This document shows, piece after piece, positions 47,087-56,945 of a DNA stretch of 64,000 nucleotides. Each line of letters opens with the position of its first letter. The first letter of the stretch is position 1. Where the stretch lies: positions 62,001 to 126,000 of the forward strand of contig NZ_SMKV01000016.1 of the NCBI RefSeq assembly GCF_004348445.1. Direction: 5' to 3'. Source of the stretch: Saccharopolyspora aridisoli. GTDB taxonomy: Bacteria > Actinomycetota > Actinomycetes > Mycobacteriales > Pseudonocardiaceae. A program made the translations under genes and the position numbers. Under the pieces are notes generated by a model. It did not search any database, was not told the origin of the DNA, and saw nothing but the letters and a program-made list of their open reading frames with translations.

Positions 47087-47099
47087 TCACCCCGGGACG

Positions 47100-47410
47100 T
47101 GCGCTCCGATGTGCGGCAGGTCGTGGGTGCCGACGGATGGCCGGGGGCGGTCGCCGAGTCACCGCACTCGCACCGCAGCGCGCCGGGGACGTCGCTGGTC
47201 AGGCGATCCGAGTGGACCGCACCAGCACGGCCTCGCTCGCCGAACCGAGGACCATCGCCAGGTGCGCGACCCCGTCGACCGGGTCGCGGAAGGCGATGCG
47301 GCGGAAGTCGCGCGTCCCGCCGCCACATGCGGTTCGGTGACGTCCACGTCGCGGATGGCGTCCTCGCGCATGGCCGCTCGCTCGTGCGTCCGGCCTCTCG
47401 TCACCTCGTC
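47100..47410 (-). pseudogene. Truncated GTP cyclohydrolase II (ribA) remnant
   Basis: One minus-strand frame reads [33 protein letters not shown], and after a frame change [18 protein letters not shown]. This matches the GTP cyclohydrolase II zinc-site region (VHSECLTGDxxGSLRCDCG). The frameshift falls just before the histidine, and the rest of the protein is gone because the MFS gene ends at 47086. It is divergent from the pterin-synthase homologue. A working copy may exist elsewhere in the genome. Confidence 0.65.
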
Positions 47411-47471
47411 CAGCTGTCTTTACGCTCGGTCGCAATCGCGACAGCAACCGGCAGACCACCGGAGGTCACCT

Positions 47472-47870
47472 TTGTTCACCGTCACGGTTCGCGATCACGT
47501 GATGATCGCCCACAGCTTCCGGGGCGAGGTCTTCGGTCCCGCGCAACGCCTGCACGGAGCGACGTTCGTGGTGGACGCGACGTTCACCCGCGAGGAGCTG
47601 GACGCCGACAACATCGTCGTCGACATCGGACGCGCCACCGAACAGCTCGGCGAGGTGCTGGCCGGGCTGAACTACCGCAACCTCGACGAGGAACCGGAGT
47701 TCGCCGGGGTCAACACCTCGACGGAGTTCCTGGCGAAGGTCATCGCCGATCGCATCGCCGACCGCGTCCACGAGGGAGCCCTCGGCGAATCCGCGCGCGG
47801 GCTCAGCGGTCTGCGCGTCGCGCTGCACGAATCGCACGTGGCCTGGGCCGGCTACGAACGCGCGCTGTGA
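47472..47870 (+). CDS. Divergent 6-pyruvoyl-tetrahydropterin synthase/QueD homologue
   Basis: The 132-residue protein starts at TTG 47472, five bases after GGAGGT, and reads [20 protein letters not shown]. The fold is recognised from the zinc-site start (IAHSF), [17 protein letters not shown], and the C-terminal [12 protein letters not shown]. In QueD and PTPS the middle motif is CxxxHGH; here the cysteine is replaced (PAQRLHGA) and the second histidine is alanine. The usual catalytic cysteine and one of three zinc ligands therefore appear to be missing. The gene begins a run of overlapping genes and may use a different pteridine-like substrate. Confidence 0.83.
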
Positions 47871-48862
47871 GGGTCCACGTCGTCGTCCCCGCCGACGACC
47901 AGCCCAGCGGCGGCAACGTCTACGACCGCCACGCCACCGCGGGTCTGGCAGCGCTGGGCTTCGACGTGCGCGTGAGGGCGCTCGCGGGAACCTGGCCGCA
48001 GCCCGACGACGACGCGCGCGACCGGTTGGCCGAGGTGCTCGCATCGGTGCCGGACGGGGGAGCGGTGCTGCTCGACGGGCTCGTGGCTTGCGGTGTTCCC
48101 GAGAGCATCGGCGCCCACGCCGACCGGCTGCGCACGGCCGTCCTGGTGCACCTGCCGCTGGCCGAGGAAACCGGGCTGAACCCGGCGACCACCGCGCGGC
48201 TCGACAACGCCGAGCGCACGACCCTGCGCGCGGCCGACCTCGTCATCGCCACGAGTCCGCAGGCCGCGCAGCGGCTCGCCCGCCACCACGGTCTCCACCG
48301 CGTGCGCACCGCGGCTCCGGGCACCGAACCCGCAGCGCTCGTACCCGGAACCGACGGGGTGTCACGACTCCTGTGCGTCGCTTCGCTGACACCCCGCAAG
48401 GGCCACGACGTGCTGGTCGAAGCCCTCGCGAACCTCCCGTTGACCTGCGACTTCGTCGGCCCGGCTCCCGATCCCGACCGCGTGCGGCGGCTGATCGAAC
48501 ACCACGAGGGGATCCGCTGGCGCGGCCCGTTGCACGGTGCGGAGCTCGCCGACGCCTACGCATCCGCCGACCTGCTCGTGCAGCCCTCCCTCGCAGAGAC
48601 CTACGGCATGGCCGTCACCGAGGCGCTGGCGCGGGGGATCCCGGTGATCGCCAGCGCCGTCCCGGACGCGCTCGGCGACGGCGGCCTGCTCCTGCAGCCC
48701 GGAGACACCGCGGCCCTCACCGAAGCACTGCGGCGCTGGTCCGACGACCCGGACTTCCGGTCCCGGCTTCGCGCGTCGTCGCTGCGCCGCCGCGATCAGC
48801 TGCCGACCTGGGAGTCGACCGCACGACAGCTGGCCGCGGCGCTGACTAGCCTGGAAGCTTGA
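47867..48862 (+). CDS. GT4-family glycosyltransferase
   Basis: The 331-residue protein starts with a GTGA overlap on the previous stop. It opens [20 protein letters not shown] and has the GT-B C-terminal half with [41 protein letters not shown] (the EX7E region) and [11 protein letters not shown]. It should move a sugar from a nucleotide donor to an acceptor with retention. The tight coupling suggests that the acceptor is the product of the pterin-like pathway or its lipid carrier. Confidence 0.88.
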
Positions 48863-49683
48863 CTGCTCCCCCTGCCTGGAGTCGGGGGTTCCCGCCGATT
48901 GGATCTTCGATGACCGCCGCCGGTTTCGCCCCGGAGTGGCTGGCACTCCGCGAACGCGCTGATGCCGAGGCTCGCGCGGCGGACCTGCTGGTACCGCTCA
49001 GCGAGTCCCTACCGGCCCATGGGCTGGTGATCCACGACCTGGGGTGCGGCACCGGCTCGATGGGACGGTGGCTGGCCGGACGGCTCGACGGCCCGCAGCA
49101 CTGGGTCCTGCACGACCGCGACCCGCGACTCCTCGCGCTCGCCGAAGCCGCCTTGGCAACCGAGGACGTCACCGTCGAAGCCCGGCGAGCCGAGCTCGCT
49201 GGACTGCGCGCGACGGACCTGGCCGGGACGTCGCTGGTCACCGCCTCCGCGCTGCTCGACGTGCTCACCGAAGCCGAAGTCCGCTCGTTGGCCGCCGCCT
49301 GCGTCGAAGCCCGCTGCCCCGCCCTGCTGACCCTCACCGTGGTCGGGCGCGTCGACTTCGATCCGCCGGAACCGCTGGACGCGGGGTTCGAGGAGGCGTT
49401 CAACCAGCACCAACGCCGCCACCTGCTCGGGCCCGACGCGGTACCCGCCGCCGTCGCGGCGTTCGAGGACCTCGGCGCGCGGGTGCTCACCCGTCCGAGC
49501 CCCTGGCGACTCGGACCGGGTCCGTTGACCGAGGAGTGGCTGCGCGGCTGGGTCGGCGCGGCCTGCGAGCAGGACCCCGAGCTGGCCGCAGCGGCACCCG
49601 ACTACCTGCGGAGGCGATCCGGTGACCTGCGGGTCCTGGTCCACCACGCCGACCTGCTCGCGATACCGGAGGAGCGAGCATGA
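48859..49683 (+). CDS. Class I SAM-dependent methyltransferase
   Basis: The 274-residue protein has AdoMet motif I LVIHDLGCGTGSMGRWLAGR and HWVLHDRDPRLLALAEAAL. A later TASALLDVLTEAEVRSLA fits motif IV/V. The TTG at 48859 overlaps the glycosyltransferase stop (TTGA); an ATG at 48910 would shorten the protein by 17 residues. It is the third gene of the coupled run and should methylate the same product. The acceptor atom cannot be told. Confidence 0.86.
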   Translation: MTAPPAWSRGFPPIGSSMTAAGFAPEWLALRERADAEARAADLLVPLSESLPAHGLVIHDLGCGTGSMGRWLAGRLDGPQHWVLHDRDPRLLALAEAALATEDVTVEARRAELAGLRATDLAGTSLVTASALLDVLTEAEVRSLAAACVEARCPALLTLTVVGRVDFDPPEPLDAGFEEAFNQHQRRHLLGPDAVPAAVAAFEDLGARVLTRPSPWRLGPGPLTEEWLRGWVGAACEQDPELAAAAPDYLRRRSGDLRVLVHHADLLAIPEERA

Positions 49684-50645
49684 TCCGCCGGCTGTGGCCC
49701 TGGCTGCGCGTGCTCGTGGCGGCCGGAATCCTCGCGCTGCTGGCGTGGCGGCTGGGCGCGGACGCGTTCCTCGACGGGCTGCGCGGCATCGACGTCGCGA
49801 CCGCGCTCGCGGCGCTGGGCATCGGGTTGGCCACCACGGTGTGCAGCGCGTGGCGGTGGTGCGTGGTCGCGCGCGGTCTCGGACTGCGGTTGCCGCTGGG
49901 CGCGGCGGTCGCCGACTACTACCGGGCCCTGCTGCTCAACGCCGTGCTGCCCGCCGGGGTGCTGGGAGACGTGCACCGCGCGGTCAGCCACGGGCACCGC
50001 TCCGGAGACCTCGGCGGTGGTGTTCGCGCCGTCGTGCTCGAACGCTTCGCCGGGCAGATCGCCCTCATCGCCGTCGCCGGGGTCGTGCTGCTGACCGGCC
50101 CGTCGCTGCCGTTCGCACTCGCTCCAGGGCTGATCGCCGCGGTTGCGGTGGCGGTGGCGGGGCTGAGCCTGCTCGTCCCAGCGGTGCGCCGTGCGTCGGT
50201 GACGTTCTGGCGCGACGCACGTCGCGGGGTGCTGACCCGGCGAGCCCTGATGCCCGTGGCGGTGGCCTCTGTCGCGACCGTCGCCGGGCACCTGGCGCTG
50301 TTCCTGGTCGCCGCGCGGGTCGCGGGTGCGGACGTTCCGGTCGCGGCCCTGCTGCCGCTGCTGGTGCTCGCGCTGCTGGTGATGGCGCTGCCGATCAACG
50401 TTGGTGGCTGGGGGCCGAGGGAAGCGTTCCTGGCGGTCGCCTTCGCCGCCACCGGGTGGGATCCGGCGCACGGCCTGGCGACTTCGGTGGCCTACGGGGT
50501 GCTGGCGGTGATCGCCGCGATGCCGGGCGTCATCCCCCTGGTCAGCCGTCAGCCAAGCGCCGCCAGGTGGTCGTCGAACGCCGCGACGAGTCCGGCGAGC
50601 TGGTCTCGGCCCGTGCGGGCTGAGACCAGCGACGGCCGCCGATGA
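49680..50645 (+). CDS. UPF0104/lysylphosphatidylglycerol synthase-like membrane protein
   Basis: The 321-residue protein starts with an ATGA overlap and has about eight membrane helices. Family blocks are ALGIGLATTVCSAWRWCVVARGLG, YYRALLLNAVLPAGVLGDVHRA, ERFAGQIALIAVAGVVLL and LPINVGGWGPREAFLAVAFAATG. This is the flippase-like part of the MprF/AglD superfamily, often paired with glycolipid synthesis. The last 34 residues (after IPLVSR) are antisense to the creatininase remnant and may not be native. Confidence 0.84.
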   Translation: MIRRLWPWLRVLVAAGILALLAWRLGADAFLDGLRGIDVATALAALGIGLATTVCSAWRWCVVARGLGLRLPLGAAVADYYRALLLNAVLPAGVLGDVHRAVSHGHRSGDLGGGVRAVVLERFAGQIALIAVAGVVLLTGPSLPFALAPGLIAAVAVAVAGLSLLVPAVRRASVTFWRDARRGVLTRRALMPVAVASVATVAGHLALFLVAARVAGADVPVAALLPLLVLALLVMALPINVGGWGPREAFLAVAFAATGWDPAHGLATSVAYGVLAVIAAMPGVIPLVSRQPSAARWSSNAATSPASWSRPVRAETSDGRR

Positions 50646-50957
50646 CGTCCGACTCCGAGTGGTGCGGCCATCCCGGCCGTGAGCGCGCGCCCGCGGTCGT
50701 CGGCGAGGCGATCGCCCGCCTCGTCGCCGGGACGGGCCGAATCGGGGTGGGCGTGCGGCGGGATGGGCGCTCCTGCTCGTCACCGGCGTCGGCAGCTACC
50801 GGGGTGGGCCGGCGACTTCCCGGGCGGTGGTGCAGGCGATGACGGTGTCGGCCACCAGCGGCAGGTGCGGCCCGTGCTGTTCGAGGTCGCCGATCGGCGG
50901 CACCGCGACAAAGGCTCGCCGGTCGCGCACGTCGTCGGTGGTGTCACGGACGAGCAT
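50549..50957 (-). pseudogene. Creatininase-family gene remnant
   Basis: From ATG 50957 the minus strand reads MLVRDTTDDVRDRRAFVAVP, then PIGDLEQHGPHLPLVADTVI, then ACTTAREVAG. The EQHGPHLPL block is the metal site of the creatininase/MftE/ArfB family. The frame then ends, and a C-terminal-like piece RDQLAGLVAAFDDHLAALG is found before the stop at 50549, so most of the middle is lost. The start overlaps the end of the dehydrogenase gene by 14 bp, as expected for a former operon partner. Confidence 0.65.
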
Positions 50958-51915
50958 GACCCGCACGGTAGTCAATCCGGTGGCACAGCGCCGGGAGCTC
51001 GCCCGTCAGCAGTCCGGGCAGGTCCTCGAAGGAGCTCTCACCGGTGATCAGGGCGTCGAAGGCGGGATCGGCGAGCAGGTCCAGCGCCAACGACATCCGC
51101 TCGGCGTAACCGCGGCGAGGATGCGCGACCACGCCCACCTGGCTGCTGCGGATCGTGAGCCGCCGGGAGTGGAAGAACTCGCCCAACGGCAAGCTCACCT
51201 CCGCGTCCCCGTACCAGCTCAGTTCGACGACCCGCCCTTCCGGTGCGAGCAGTTCCAGCGAGCGCACCAGGCCCTGCCGGTGGCCGCTGGCGTGCACGAC
51301 GAGATCGCACCCGTCGTGGGCGTGTTCTGGGGTGGCGAAGTCGACGCCGAGGGCGCGCGCGGTCGTCTCGCGGGCGGGGTCGACGTCGATCAACTGCGCC
51401 CGCACGCCGGGGACGCGGGCGAGGATCGCGGCCACGGCGCAGCCGACCATCCCGCCACCGACGACCGCGATCCGGTCACCGATCAGCGGGGCCGCGTCCC
51501 ACGCGGCGTTGACCGCGGTCTCCACGGTTCCGGCGAGCACGGCCCGCTCGGGCGGGACCTGCGGGGGCACGACGGTGACCGCGTCGGCGGGAACCACGTA
51601 CCGGGTCTGGTGCGGGTACAGGCAGAACACCACGCGGCCTTCCAGCTCGGTTGGCCCGCGTTCGACCACGCCGACGTTGAGGTAGCCGTACTTGACCGGC
51701 CACGGGAACTCGCCCTCCTGGAACGGCGCCCGCATCCGCCGGTGCTGGGACTCGGGGATTCGTCCGCGCAGCACGAGGTTTTCGGTGCCCCGGCTGATCG
51801 CCGAGTGCAAGGTGCGCACCCGCACCTGATCCGGCGAACGGTCCGGCAGCGCGGCGCGCCGGATCTCGCACTCGCCCTCCGACGTGACCCACAATGCTCG
51901 CGTGGCCTCTGCCAT
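50944..51915 (-). CDS. Zinc-type alcohol dehydrogenase, BchC-like
   Basis: The 323-residue protein is an MDR dehydrogenase with HSAISRGTENLVLRGRIP in place of the usual zinc-ligand CxxD/H start, like BchC (bacteriochlorophyllide dehydrogenase) relatives. The Rossmann motif is IAVVGGGMVGCAVAAILA. The catalytic zinc ligands are not all present, so the mechanism may differ. It is divergent from the phosphatidyltransferase, with 21 bp between starts. It probably oxidises a hydroxyl of the cluster product. Confidence 0.84.
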   Translation of the reverse strand: MAEATRALWVTSEGECEIRRAALPDRSPDQVRVRTLHSAISRGTENLVLRGRIPESQHRRMRAPFQEGEFPWPVKYGYLNVGVVERGPTELEGRVVFCLYPHQTRYVVPADAVTVVPPQVPPERAVLAGTVETAVNAAWDAAPLIGDRIAVVGGGMVGCAVAAILARVPGVRAQLIDVDPARETTARALGVDFATPEHAHDGCDLVVHASGHRQGLVRSLELLAPEGRVVELSWYGDAEVSLPLGEFFHSRRLTIRSSQVGVVAHPRRGYAERMSLALDLLADPAFDALITGESSFEDLPGLLTGELPALCHRIDYRAGHARP

Positions 51916-51936
51916 GGACGACCTCCGAGGACCAGA

Positions 51937-52623
51937 GTGGCGATGATCGAACTCCACCGCAACACAGCGGAGCACCTGACGTGGGCGGCCGTCCAGGTGG
52001 GTGCGCTCGGCGCGGTCGCCGCGACCACCGGTCTCGGACCCGCCGGTTGGGGTGCTGGGGTCGGCTGCGCGATCGTCACCCTGGTGCTGCTGCGCCGCTC
52101 GATGCGCCGGCACGACCGGACTTCCCTCGGCCCGGCCGACCGCATCACGCTCGTCCGGGCCGCGCTGACCGCGGTGATCGCCGCGCTGGTGGTCGACGGT
52201 GCTGGGCCCGCGATCATCGTCACCCTCGGCGTCGTCGCGCTGATCAGCGACCTCTTCGACGGCCTGCTGGCCCGGCGCACCGGCACGGTGTCGGTGTTCG
52301 GGGCGCGGTTGGACATGGAGGTCGACGCGTTCCTCATCCTGGTGCTCAGCGCGCACGTCGCTGTCGCGTTCGGCGTGTGGGTGCTGTCGATCGGGGTGAT
52401 GCGCTACCTGTTCGTGGCCGCGTCGTGGGTGTTGCCGCGGCTTCGAGGGGAGCTGCCGCCGAGCTTCGCCCGCAAGGCCGTGGCCGCGGTGCAGGGGATC
52501 GTGCTCGTCGCCGCGGCGTCGGGGGTCGTCCCGCACGCGGGCGGGCTGGTCGCCTGCGCGCTGCTCCTCCTCGTGTGGTCGTTCAGCCGAGACGTGCTGT
52601 GGCTCAGCCTTTCTCAGACGTGA
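51937..52623 (+). CDS. CDP-alcohol phosphatidyltransferase
   Basis: The 228-residue membrane protein carries the full CDP-OH-P signature: DLFDGLLARRTGTVSVFGAR then LDMEVD, that is DGx2ARx8Gx3Dx3D. Several membrane helices surround it. It transfers a phosphatidyl or similar group from a CDP-linked donor to an alcohol. The GTG at 51937 follows GAGGA; an ATG at 51943 is an alternative. Its presence is the main reason to think the cluster product is lipid-linked. Confidence 0.88.
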   Translation: MAMIELHRNTAEHLTWAAVQVGALGAVAATTGLGPAGWGAGVGCAIVTLVLLRRSMRRHDRTSLGPADRITLVRAALTAVIAALVVDGAGPAIIVTLGVVALISDLFDGLLARRTGTVSVFGARLDMEVDAFLILVLSAHVAVAFGVWVLSIGVMRYLFVAASWVLPRLRGELPPSFARKAVAAVQGIVLVAAASGVVPHAGGLVACALLLLVWSFSRDVLWLSLSQT

Positions 52624-53299
52624 CCTTCGGGAAGTAGCGCAGCACGGCGACATCGCCGAGCCGGGTCACGTCTTCGAGGTGGAAGCGGCGTGCCGGACCG
52701 CCGGGGAAGCTGTCCGGGTTGAGGAATCGCGGCGCGCCTGCTTGTCCGATGAGCGTCGGCGCGATCGCCATCCGGATCTCGTCCGCCAGACCGGCTTTGA
52801 GGAACTCGGTGTGGATGCAGGTCCCGCCCTCCACCATGAGCCGCTCGACGCCCCGGTCGGCGAGGTCGTCGACGAGCGCGGGGAAGTCGACTCGCGTTCC
52901 CAGGGAAGCGATTTCGGCCAGTCCGCCCACGCGGCCGCGCGCTGCGCGCGCGCCGTCGTCGGTGGTGTAGACGAGCTTGTCGCCGCCGCGCTGCCACAAG
53001 CGCAGCGCGGGGTCGAGGTCGCCACCGCCGGACACGACGACCTTCAGCGGGTGCTCCGGCAGGCCGCGCGCGGTCCGTTCGGCGCACCTGCCGGCGCTGC
53101 GGACCAGCAGTCGCGGGTCATCCCGGCGCACCGTGCCCGCACCCAGCAGGATCGCGTCGGACTCGGCGCGCACCTGGTCGACGTGGTCGAAGTCGGCCGC
53201 GTTGGACAGCAGGAACCGCTGCGGGTCGACGTCGTCGATGAAGCCGTCCGCGCTGACGGCGACGCTGAGCAGAACGTACGGGCGCGACACATCCGTCAC
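52604..53299 (-). CDS. RibD-like dihydrofolate-reductase-family reductase
   Basis: The 231-residue protein has the RibD C-terminal (pyrimidine reductase) fold: YVLLSVAVSADGFIDD, AESDAILLGAGTVRRDDPRL, LMVEGGTCIHTEFLKAGLAD and APTLIGQAGAPRF. In riboflavin synthesis such a domain reduces the ribosyl group of the GTP-derived pyrimidine with NADPH. No deaminase domain is fused. It overlaps the convergent phosphatidyltransferase by 20 bp. It supports a riboflavin- or pteridine-precursor substrate. Confidence 0.87.
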   Translation of the reverse strand: MTDVSRPYVLLSVAVSADGFIDDVDPQRFLLSNAADFDHVDQVRAESDAILLGAGTVRRDDPRLLVRSAGRCAERTARGLPEHPLKVVVSGGGDLDPALRLWQRGGDKLVYTTDDGARAARGRVGGLAEIASLGTRVDFPALVDDLADRGVERLMVEGGTCIHTEFLKAGLADEIRMAIAPTLIGQAGAPRFLNPDSFPGGPARRFHLEDVTRLGDVAVLRYFPKVTSEKG

Positions 53300-53420: not shown

Positions 53421-54233
53421 ATGAGTCACGCACTGCCCTACGAGGTCAACTGCTCGATCCTGCTCACCGATCTGCCGCTGCTGGAGCGACCGGCCGCCGC
53501 GAAGGAAGCCGGCTTCGACGCCGTCGAGTTCTGGTGGCCGTTCGACACCGCGGTGCCCGCGCAACGCGACGTCGACGCCTTCGTCCGCGCCGTCGAGGAC
53601 GCGGGAGTGCGGCTGGTCGGGCTCAACTTCTTCGCCGGGAACATGCCCGGCGGCGACCGCGGGCTCGTCTCGTGGCCGGCGCGCAGCCAGGAGTTCCGCG
53701 ACAACGTCGACGTCACCGTCGAGATCGGCGAACGGCTGGGCTGCACCGCCTTCAACGCCCTCTACGGCAACCGCGTCGACGACGCCTCCGCCGAGGAGCA
53801 GGACGCCCTGGCCGTGGAGAACCTCGCGCTCGCCGCGAAGTCCGCCGCCCGCATCGGCGGAACGGTGCTGGTCGAGCCGGTCAGCGGCCCGCAGCCCTAC
53901 CCGCTGCGCACCGCCGCCGACGCGCTCGCCGTCATCGACCGGGTGCAAGCCGAGGCCAGGGCGACCAACCTCGGGCTGCTCGCCGACCTCTACCACCTGG
54001 CGGTCAACGGCGACGACGTGGACCAGGTCATCGCCGACCACATCAGGCGCATCGCGCACGTGCAGATCGCCGACCACCCGGGCCGCAACGAACCCGGCAC
54101 GGGATCGCTGCCGCTGCAGCAGCAGCTCACCGCGCTCGAGCGCGGCGGCTACCGCGGTTGGGTCGGCCTGGAGCACAAGGCGAGCGGCCAGGCGGGCCCC
54201 TTCGACTGGCTCCCCCGCGAACGCCGCAGCTGA
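53421..54233 (+). CDS. hyi: Hydroxypyruvate isomerase family protein
   Basis: The 270-residue TIM-barrel protein reads YEVNCSILLTDLPLLERPAAA, GFDAVEFWWPF, GLNFFAGNMPGGDRG, VLVEPVSGPQPYPL and GLEHKASG. The two glutamates at VEP and LEH are the metal and catalytic residues of Hyi. It interconverts hydroxypyruvate and tartronate semialdehyde. It opens the operon behind a TTGACA promoter, with glxR 28 nt downstream. Confidence 0.9.
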   Translation: MSHALPYEVNCSILLTDLPLLERPAAAKEAGFDAVEFWWPFDTAVPAQRDVDAFVRAVEDAGVRLVGLNFFAGNMPGGDRGLVSWPARSQEFRDNVDVTVEIGERLGCTAFNALYGNRVDDASAEEQDALAVENLALAAKSAARIGGTVLVEPVSGPQPYPLRTAADALAVIDRVQAEARATNLGLLADLYHLAVNGDDVDQVIADHIRRIAHVQIADHPGRNEPGTGSLPLQQQLTALERGGYRGWVGLEHKASGQAGPFDWLPRERRS

Positions 54234-54261
54234 ACCAAGAGATCCGAGGAGGAAGCAAGCA

Positions 54262-55146
54262 ATGAGCTCGATCGCGTTCATCGGCCTGGGCGTCATGGGC
54301 AGCCCCATGGCCGTGCACCTCGCCTACGCCGGCCACGACGTGACCGGTTACAACCTCACGCCCGACAAGTACGGCCCGCTCGAGGCGGCGGGCGGGAGCC
54401 CGGCCGGCTCGATCGCCGAGGCCGTGGCGGGCGCTGAGATCGTCTGCGTGATGGTCCCCGACAGCCCCGACGTGCGCGACGTGCTCGCCGGTGAGGGCGG
54501 GGTCTTCGCCAACGCCAAGCCCGGCGCGCTGATCATCGACTTCTCCAGCATCCGCCCCGACGTCACCATCGAGCTCGCCGGTACGGCGGCCGAGAGGGGG
54601 TTCCGGCTGCTCGACGCCCCGGTCTCCGGTGGTGAGGCCGGCGCGAAGAACGCGGCGCTGTCCATCATGGTCGGTGGTTCCGAGGCGGACTTCGCCGCTG
54701 CGGCGGAGGTCTTCGACCACGTCGGCAAGACCGTCGTGCACGTCGGGCCGAGCGGTGCGGGTCAGACCGTCAAGGCCGCCAACCAGCTGATCGTGGCGTC
54801 GAACATCCAGGCGCTGGCGGAAGCCGTGGTGTTCGTCGAGTCCTACGGCGTGGACACCGAAGCCGCGCTGGAGGTCCTCGGCGGCGGGCTCGCCGGGTCG
54901 GCGGTGCTGGAGCAGAAGCGGCGGAACATGCTCGACCGCAACTTCGCCCCCGGTTTCCGCATCGACCTGCACCACAAGGACCTGGGCATCGTCACCGCCG
55001 CCGCCCGCGAATCCGGTGCGGTCGTGCCGCTGGGCTCGCTGCTCGCCCAGCTGATGGCCTCCGCTCGCGCCAACGGTGACGGCGGGCTCGACCACTCCGC
55101 GCTGCTGCGCGGCGTCGAACGACTCTCCGGTCTCAGCGACACCTGA
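54262..55146 (+). CDS. glxR: 2-hydroxy-3-oxopropionate (tartronate semialdehyde) reductase
   Basis: The 294-residue protein is a beta-hydroxyacid dehydrogenase. The N-terminal Rossmann motif is [17 protein letters not shown], the substrate loop [14 protein letters not shown], and the catalytic lysine is in [11 protein letters not shown]. It reduces tartronate semialdehyde to D-glycerate with NAD(P)H, using the product of Gcl encoded next. A GAGGAGG site precedes the ATG. Confidence 0.92.
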
Positions 55147-55169
55147 CCCCAGCCGAAACGAGGACGAAC

Positions 55170-56945
55170 ATGACGCGCATGCGCACCGTCGACGCCGCCG
55201 CCCTCATCCTGGAGAAGGAGGGCGCCACGCAGACCTTCGGGCTGCCCGGCGCCGCGATCAACCCGTTCTACAGCGCCATGAAGGAGCACGGCGGCATCCG
55301 CCACGTGCTCGCCCGCCACGTCGAGGCCGCCTCGCACATGGCCGAGGGCTACACGCGGACCGAAGCGGGCAACATCGGCGTCTGCGTCGGCACCTCGGGG
55401 CCGGCGGGCACCGACATGATCACCGGGTTGTACTCCGCTTCGGCCGACTCGATTCCGATCCTGGCCATCACCGGCCAGGCCCCGGTCGCCAAGCTGCACA
55501 AGGAGGACTTCCAGGCGGTCGACATCCAGTCGGTGGCCCAGCCCGTCACCAAGTGGGCGGTGACCGTGCTGGAACCGGCCCAGGTCCCGGGCGCGTTCCA
55601 GAAGGCGTTCCAGCTGATGCGGTCGGGAAGGCCCGGTCCGGTGCTCCTCGACCTCCCGGTGGACGTGCAGCTGGCGGAGATCGAGTTCGACATCGGCACC
55701 TACGAGCCGCTTCCGGTCGCCACCCCGGCGGCGACCCGTGCACAGGTCGAGCACGCCCTGGAGATGCTCAACTCCGCGGAGCGGCCGCTGATCGTCGCCG
55801 GTGGCGGCGTCATCAACGCCGACGCCTCGGACCTGCTGGTGGAGTTCGCCGAGACGCTGGGCGTTCCGGTCGTGCCCACGTTGATGGGCTGGGGCACGAT
55901 GCCCGACGACCACCCGCTGGCGGCCGGCATGGTCGGTCTGCAGACCGCGCACCGCTACGGCAACGCGACGATGCTCGCGTCGGACTTCGTGCTCGGCATC
56001 GGCAACCGCTGGGCCAACCGGCACACCGGAGGTCTCGACACCTATCGCAAGGGCCGGACCTTCGTCCACGTCGACGTCGAGCCCACCCAGATCGGTCGGG
56101 TCTTCGCACCGGATTACGGCATCGTGTCCGACGCCCGGGCCGCGCTCGAGGTCTTCGTCGAGGTCGCGCGCGAATGGCGGGAGCAGGGCAGGCTCGCCGA
56201 TCGCGGTGCGTGGATCCGGGGGTGCCAGGACCGCAAGGCGGAGCTGCTGCGCAAGACCGACTTCGACGCCGCACCGATCAAGCCGCAGCGGGTGTACCAG
56301 GAGATGAACCGCGCGTTCGGCCCCGACACCCGCTACGTCTCCACGATCGGGCTCTCGCAGATCCAGGCCGCGCAGATGCTGCACGTCTACCGGCCGCGGC
56401 ACTGGATCAACGCGGGTCAGGCCGGTCCGCTGGGCTGGACGGTGCCCGCCGCCATCGGCGTGGCCACCGCCGACCCTGAGTCCGCAGTGGTCGCGGTCTC
56501 GGGCGACTACGACTTCCAGTTCCTGGTGGAGGAGCTCGCGGTCGGCGCGCAGTTCAACATCCCGTTCGTGCACGTGCTGATCAACAACGCCTACCTCGGG
56601 CTGATCCGGCAGGCGCAGCGCGGGTTCGACATGGACTACTGCGTGCAGCTGTCCTTCGACAACATCAACGCGCCGGATCTCGCCGGGTACGGCGTCGACC
56701 ACGTCAAGGTCGTCGAAGGGCTCGGCTGCAAGGCGCTGCGGGTGTTCGAGTCCGAGGGCATCTTCGATGCGCTGGAGCAGGCCAAGAAGCTCGTCGCCGA
56801 ACACCGGGTCCCGGTGGTGGTGGAGGTCGTGGTCGAGCGGGTCACCAACGTGTCGATGGGCACCGAGATCGACGCGGTCAACGAGTTCGAGGCGCTGGCC
56901 GAGTCCGGCGCCGACGCTCCGACCGCGGTGGCGGGCCGGTCGTGA
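55170..56945 (+). CDS. gcl: Glyoxylate carboligase
   Basis: The 591-residue ThDP enzyme condenses two glyoxylate molecules to tartronate semialdehyde and CO2. The N-terminal block reads [20 protein letters not shown] then [16 protein letters not shown]. The valine in RHV replaces the glutamate found in nearly all other ThDP enzymes and is the known mark of Gcl. The C-terminal ThDP motif is [18 protein letters not shown] through INNAYLGL. The length matches the family. Its stop overlaps the next start. Confidence 0.95.

Follow-up and report, generated by a model that had tools for sequence, protein, structure and literature searches.

The locus in Saccharopolyspora aridisoli

The gene cluster described here lies in a stretch of 64,000 nucleotides of the Saccharopolyspora aridisoli genome (contig NZ_SMKV01000016.1; the window), where seven intact genes and the remnants of two others together span positions 47096-53299. 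With a probability of about 0.6, we read this locus as a trimmed copy of a conserved pathway that would start from GTP, pass through the formylated pyrimidine FAPy and through APy (2,5-diamino-6-ribosylamino-4(3H)-pyrimidinone 5'-phosphate, a riboflavin precursor), and continue by reduction and by later modification or coupling to lipid. Its features, in window coordinates, are the following:

47096..47389, minus strand: remnant of a GTP cyclohydrolase II (RibA) gene, middle deleted and frames broken (tblastn pieces against the intact S. endophytica RibA)
47472..47870, plus strand: PTPS-like T-fold protein, orthologue of SCO6650 (Pfam PF01242, 2.9e-22; PDB 3d7j, 4.6e-70, residues 1-132)
47867..48862, plus strand: GT4 glycosyltransferase (Pfam PF13692 Glyco_trans_1_4, 2.9e-23)
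48859..49683, plus strand: S-adenosylmethionine (SAM) methyltransferase (Pfam PF13649 Methyltransf_25, 2.1e-8; DLGCGTGS in the sequence)
49680..50645, plus strand: LPG_synthase_TM (UPF0104) membrane protein, LPG_TM below (Pfam PF03706, 2.1e-24)
50555..50975, minus strand: remnant of a creatininase-family gene, middle deleted (two tblastn pieces, 73% and 46% identical to a Saccharothrix protein)
50944..51915, minus strand: BchC-like MDR dehydrogenase (NCBIfam TIGR01202, BchC, 44.9 bits, sub-threshold)
51949..52623, plus strand: CDP-alcohol phosphatidyltransferase (Pfam PF01066 CDP-OH_P_transf, 3.3e-13; full D-D-G-A-R-G-D-D motif)
52604..53299, minus strand: RibD_C-type reductase with no deaminase domain (Pfam PF01872, 6.9e-39, the sole domain detected)

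The seven reading frames at 47472-53299 are open, match Pfam or NCBIfam profiles and stand in the order and at the positions given by the original prediction, which had been made from the sequence alone; the first four do overlap by 4 bp each, as it had reported (47867-47870, 48859-48862 and 49680-49683). Canonical PTPS enzymes have a catalytic Cys, His residues that are zinc ligands and a Glu that binds the pterin edge; compared with a canonical homologue (L124), the family of the window protein has Ala at the catalytic Cys and at one of the His-ligand positions and retains the Glu. The window protein scores 35.2 bits against the QueD model, whose cut-off is 89.25, and does not carry the residue set of a canonical PTPS or QueD. 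The structure of SCO6650 reportedly has no zinc and no triad, and keeps a pterin-like pocket.

Solved relatives of the GT4 protein include the D-inositol 3-phosphate glycosyltransferase 7qsg. The methyltransferase starts at TTG as called, and an ATG at 48910 agrees better with its relatives. The C-terminal tail of LPG_TM is unlike that of the S. endophytica protein, with which the alignment stops at residue 291 of 321, whereas with the S. ipomoeae protein it reaches residue 321. BchC is the top NCBIfam match of the dehydrogenase although far under the cut-off of 291 bits, and its match to Pfam ADH_zinc_N (1.2e-6, 28.9 bits) also falls under the cut-off (31.8). MDR dehydrogenases usually carry a Cys motif and a GHE motif with their zinc ligands, in place of which this protein has SRGTE and GYLNVG. 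The signature of CDP-alcohol phosphatidyltransferases, DxxDGxxAR...G...D...D, is complete in the window protein (D101, D104, G105, A108, R109, G118, D122 and D126), with residues conserved across the family alignment, and the RibD_C protein has the archaeal-type reductase TIGR01508 as its top NCBIfam match (141.7 bits, under the cut-off of 186).

The remnants of GTP cyclohydrolase II and creatininase-type genes that had been predicted in the locus were recovered in tblastn searches that took the intact S. endophytica and Saccharothrix homologues as queries. The RibA pieces sit in different reading frames and share 57-90% identity with the undamaged protein of S. endophytica, the 90% piece having 10 residues only. 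S. endophytica (L017) is a close relative, its PTPS being 98% identical to that of the window, and this sister species keeps both ribA (of the Gln type, see below) and the creatininase gene intact; DNA alignment to it reveals one break per gene, with ~340 bp gone from ribA and ~280 bp from the creatininase gene.

Spread of the cluster and exchange of its entry genes

The PTPS query had 494 relatives among the candidate genome-contig stretches, and the 122 loci studied comprise the best 80 of these 494, 40 from later genome searches and two more from the genus, all distinct in their PTPS DNA. Apart from PTPS, which was the selection criterion (122), the loci hold genes for the dehydrogenase (120), GT4 (120), LPG_TM (113), CDP-alcohol transferase (113), methyltransferase (110), RibA (93), creatininase (79) and RibD_C (41), with contig ends included as they are. 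A gene set that recurs in more than 100 loci is not a chance arrangement. The wide co-occurrence by which the original prediction was to be judged also holds at the level of genomes: among 296 genomes of the class, PTPS was found in 43 and the dehydrogenase in all of these (45 genomes had the latter above the cut-off used, the two extra matches being weak), and 42 of the 43 have both genes on one contig at most ~1.4 kb apart, the exception being G478, in which they are split between two small contigs. A PTPS match above 90 bits turned up in 24 of 398 genomes from the phylum as a whole, and in Saccharopolyspora the cluster PTPS is present in 8 of 22 genomes. Viral contigs, when searched, yielded no PTPS relatives. 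Plasmid records with PTPS numbered 20, from which 15 regions were opened; ten belong to Proteobacteria (nine Alpha- and one Gammaproteobacteria) and contain the same gene set in part or whole, and five are from Actinomycetota, including two Streptomyces plasmids with a lone PTPS. The set of which the window has a trimmed copy extends through Actinomycetota and also occurs on alpha- and gammaproteobacterial plasmids.

The creatininase gene tracks one type of RibA in these loci, as expected of a FAPy deformylase. At the switch position, which aligns with the Tyr of the GTP cyclohydrolases 2bz0, 4i14 and 4rl4, most RibA proteins of actinobacterial clusters have Met, His, Gln or Leu, and the rest have Tyr. 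Adequate flanks (at least 3.5 kb before and at least 4.8 kb after PTPS) were available for 120 loci (107 genomic and 13 plasmid), in which a creatininase was scored as intact only above 300 bits. A non-Tyr RibA occurs with an intact creatininase in 72 of them, a Tyr-type RibA without creatininase in 18 and neither gene, within the DNA fetched, in 28. Only two loci are exceptions and each has an explanation: L042 has a non-Tyr RibA and a creatininase split across two frames, and L048 (S. sediminilitoris) has a creatininase without a linked RibA, while elsewhere in the same genome, unlinked, a RibA gene (L215) codes for His at the switch. Its relative L038 (S. marina) is one of the 28; the creatininase there is truncated, and no non-Tyr RibA was found among the matches of that genome with a readable motif. 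The 13 loci dropped for short flanks include L036 and L082 (non-Tyr RibA and no creatininase, the contig ending there) and L158 (Tyr-type RibA and no creatininase); L057 (a lone PTPS), L133 (a short contig) and the plasmid lone-PTPS loci L223 and L231 were left out for having no dehydrogenase.

A linked creatininase was found in none of the 20 loci with a Tyr-type RibA, 14 from the genomic set and six, on alphaproteobacterial plasmids, from the plasmid set, and one Sciscionella has kept the pairing of non-Tyr RibA and creatininase although its RibA was relocated. All 24 non-cluster RibA copies fetched have Tyr, several further matches having been left out. In the RibA tree a single supported clade unites the non-Tyr cluster enzymes, and the Tyr-type ones make up a clade of 12 plus two apart (L132 and L160), whose pairing has weak support; the six alphaproteobacterial plasmid proteins stood outside this tree. 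On the tree of dehydrogenase and PTPS, the non-Tyr RibA and the creatininase change 11 times each, compared with just 20 changes of their joint state (which counts the Tyr type too), so that most changes coincide. Three independent pairs, taken over 200 random pairings, nearly always agree and are never opposed for these two traits. Given this exchange across loci, the creatininase is most likely a FAPy deformylase, with APy as the shared intermediate.

In an article by Spoonamore and colleagues, in Biochemistry in 2006, the S. coelicolor enzyme SCO6655 is said to have Met at the switch (which we take to be Met120) and to make FAPy, and APy once Tyr is installed. We know of no explanation for the role of such a FAPy-stopping GTP cyclohydrolase II. 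The pattern described above offers it a role, names its partner enzyme and predicts which residue accompanies which gene content, and a widely conserved orphan pathway is thereby reduced to runnable assays.

RibD_C is present in all 18 cluster genomes searched, 16 of which have no linked copy (in G560 it is in two pieces), compared with a similarly strong match in six of 60 cluster-negative genomes (in G489 in two pieces), a control set that includes smaller, less complete genomes. In the genus Saccharopolyspora it was found in six of the eight cluster genomes vs none of the 14 others, and the remaining two have only a distant, linked copy. In L132 and L160 a single open frame covers RibA and RibD_C, as is the case for GT4 and methyltransferase in L132. 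Away from the cluster, a Tyr-type RibA stands beside RibD_C at L207, L208 and L212 (a Streptomyces and a Planotetraspora genome), perhaps the SCO2687-type locus.

The neighbourhood includes recurrent genes that were excluded as core members for being too variable: a sulfatase-like gene in 14 loci, PAP2_3 in 11 Actinomadura loci, an inositol monophosphatase in nine and a second GT4 in seven Amycolatopsis loci. The PAP2_3 gene adjoins the creatininase gene in L030 (13653-14558) and ten other loci, all of Actinomadura. The sulfatase-like gene, whose Pfam support is under the cut-off or none, recurs by the CDP-alcohol transferase or LPG_TM genes in Actinomycetota and Rhizobiaceae (L062:16616-18316, L220:2472-4115, L229:2516-4141), and a cytochrome b561-type gene lies beside the RibD gene in three proteobacterial clusters (L220:12055-12582, L229:12026-12565, L218:11528-12085). 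In two Amycolatopsis loci (L023 and L029) a single open frame encodes both LPG_TM and RibA, an arrangement that would suit a membrane-anchored cyclohydrolase. In the window itself, the cluster adjoins an apparent glyoxylate carboligase operon (53421-56945; isomerase-like, reductase-like and thiamine pyrophosphate enzymes), recognized by reading alone and probably unrelated.

The proposed pathway and its alternatives

In the first step of the pathway that we propose, a specialised RibA without the switch Tyr would halt at FAPy, from which the creatininase-family enzyme would strip the formyl group to give APy. In other lineages a single Tyr-type RibA would stand in for both steps, and in those without the two entry genes, such as the window strain, the housekeeping RibBA could supply APy. 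RibD_C would then reduce the ribosyl chain without deamination. Later, in an order that we do not specify, the PTPS-like protein, which has no canonical catalytic residues, may bind the guanine-like pyrimidine or a pterin derived from it; the BchC-like dehydrogenase, GT4 and methyltransferase may modify the bound compound; and the CDP-alcohol transferase and LPG_TM may couple the product to a membrane lipid or move it with one. The original prediction had already placed RibA, creatininase and RibD_C in succession on GTP, a proposal backed by the exchange of entry genes, the RibA-RibD_C fusions and the co-occurrence of RibD_C. As far as comparative evidence reaches, these three steps are supported, and the glycosylation, methylation and lipid coupling are what the remaining gene families suggest. 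The product is probably not a flavin. Of 25 cluster genomes, 24 encode a lumazine synthase and all 25 a GTP cyclohydrolase I, in every case on a different contig from PTPS or at a distance of more than 330 kb, and a flavin, or a pterin of the GTP-cyclohydrolase-I type, is therefore unlikely to come from the cluster alone.

A wider reading is that Actinomycetota and Proteobacteria share a so far undescribed family of membrane lipids with a methylated, glycosylated, guanine-derived ribitylaminopyrimidine (or pterin) as head group, which would branch from the riboflavin route at APy by way of two interchangeable entry modules. We put this forward as a tentative idea, more doubtful than not; should the end product indeed be a lipid, two phyla would have a new lipid class in common.

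With both entry genes broken, the window locus would depend on the housekeeping RibBA for its precursor. This RibBA, with Tyr at the switch position, is the sole RibA of the genome, so that APy would still be available. It has to be asked whether the loss of ribA and creatininase instead marks a dead, pseudogenising cluster, since deletions have hit two of its genes. However, the remaining seven genes are open, their pairwise dN/dS against S. endophytica is 0.055-0.35 (0.11-0.23 for flank genes), and the window branch has no surplus of amino-acid change in the cluster, its non-synonymous and synonymous codon changes numbering 30 and 82, compared with 31 and 54 on the branch of S. endophytica (Fisher p 0.16); the corresponding counts for four flank genes are 30:61 and 8:43. 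S. rhizosphaerae, S. ipomoeae and S. flava likewise hold the seven genes without the ribA/creatininase pair. Together, these observations argue for a locus that is trimmed rather than dead, and we regard pseudogenisation as improbable; the dN/dS values and the branch codon counts were the grounds for not adopting the view that it is plainly dead.

Several observations weigh against the proposed pathway. RibD_C is linked in a minority of loci only (41 of 122; 28 strong matches and 13 distant relatives), and at a loose cut-off some match to it exists in 24 of the 60 cluster-negative genomes. The independent events behind the exchange of entry genes are few, the three supported pairs giving a sign test median p of 0.25, and for the Tyr-RibA trait against creatininase there are five pairs, mostly without difference; absence of both entry genes holds for the fetched stretch of DNA only. 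The closest curated match of the intact Saccharothrix creatininase is MftE (135.9 bits, under the cut-off of 172), and against ArfB it scores only 40.7 bits (cut-off 180). No result points to a sugar, methyl acceptor or lipid, and the profile and structure-relative matches of the window proteins do not identify a substrate for the GT4, methyltransferase, dehydrogenase or CDP-alcohol transferase. The latter and LPG_TM, in 113 of 122 loci each, are both absent from L131 and L160, where ~10 kb was read on each side. A lone SCO6650-type PTPS without the cluster also occurs in Streptomyces (L057, L223 and L231), the two plasmid copies (L223 and L231) being near MEKHLA, cupin and MBL-fold genes.

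The creatininase might accordingly act on another substrate, for example as an MftE-like peptidase, its link to the non-Tyr RibA reflecting shared ancestry of neighbours, for which the MftE match, the single clade of non-Tyr RibAs and the scarcity of independent events can be cited; the coincidence of most changes, the pairing retained in Sciscionella despite a moved RibA and the empty Tyr-type class (0/20) make this quite unlikely. A product other than the one that we favour deserves somewhat more credit. One proposal is that the PTPS-like protein cyclises APy, or a compound derived from it, to give a dihydropterin that is then glycosylated and methylated, for which the pterin glycosides of cyanobacteria are a parallel, with RibD_C serving another route. 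The T-fold protein retains the ligand-binding Glu, the dehydrogenase and GT4 are its most constant partners (120 of 122 loci each) and RibD_C is unlinked in 81 of the 122 loci; yet GTP cyclohydrolase I, although present in every cluster genome examined, is distant, RibD_C accompanies the cluster in both phyla and is fused to RibA in two loci, and a reduced ribose would prevent ring closure on it, so that we hold this to be unlikely. A soluble nucleoside-like natural product, for which the CDP-alcohol transferase and LPG_TM would provide export or self-protection without lipid attachment, seems slightly less improbable. It would suit the variable neighbours, which would accord with specialised metabolism, and the loci L131, L159, L160 and L232, which retain dehydrogenase, PTPS and GT4 and in which neither membrane gene was found (L159 ends 1.5 kb upstream of PTPS), but does not fit well with the frequency of both genes elsewhere, their recurrence in Rhizobiaceae by a gene annotated as a sulfatase or the shared frame of LPG_TM and RibA in two Amycolatopsis.

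Relation to known systems

The original prediction had called the pathway undescribed, which is only partly so: a literature search, with most subscription journals outside its reach, found no paper that treats the cluster as a pathway or describes its product, but the structure of SCO6650 has been solved (3d7j). What is new here is the entry logic, that is, the exchange of RibA type and creatininase, and the spread to Proteobacteria, in a cluster that was partly known before. The activity that has reportedly been published for SCO6655 is a second reason not to regard it as undescribed.

The closest known system is the SCO6650-SCO6655 region of S. coelicolor, to whose SCO6650 the window PTPS is orthologous over its full length (E 4.6e-70). 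As in loci of this type, the window has the PTPS orthologue in one locus with a BchC-like dehydrogenase and a GT4; the non-Tyr RibA and the creatininase are there as remnants only. The family's loci in other Streptomyces, as distinct from S. coelicolor's own, have PTPS, GT4, methyltransferase, LPG_TM, creatininase and a Met-type RibA in a row, the last presumably as in SCO6655. The window differs from them in the loss of RibA and creatininase, in the strong RibD_C inside the cluster and in the order and strands of its genes. Single genes of the S. coelicolor region are named in tables of two transcriptome or modelling papers, SCO6655 in PMC2853524 and SCO6652 in PMC3610822.

The mycofactocin cluster, as described in PMC3023750, also combines a creatininase-family member (MftE) with a glycosyltransferase in Actinobacteria, whereas a peptide precursor and a radical SAM gene are absent among the genes assigned in the present cluster and its creatininase scores below the MftE cut-off. 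The pepteridine cluster of Photorhabdus likewise has a PTPS homologue within a specialised pathway derived from pteridine; that pathway, according to PMC5384830, employs an NRPS-like enzyme together with GTP cyclohydrolase I, the latter lying outside clusters of the window type. The formation of riboflavin through FAPy (archaeal ArfB and Sinorhizobium BrbF, the latter first annotated as a creatininase, according to PMC9478397) would share the first two reactions, a formylated pyrimidine and then its deformylation, with a RibD-type reductase next. Here, FAPy would come from a relative of GTP cyclohydrolase II, and the cluster creatininase is only remotely like ArfB in sequence, below the cut-off for that family. 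Unlike a riboflavin operon, the cluster has no lumazine synthase and the window RibD_C protein no deaminase domain, and it adds a GT4, a methyltransferase, a dehydrogenase and lipid-type genes.

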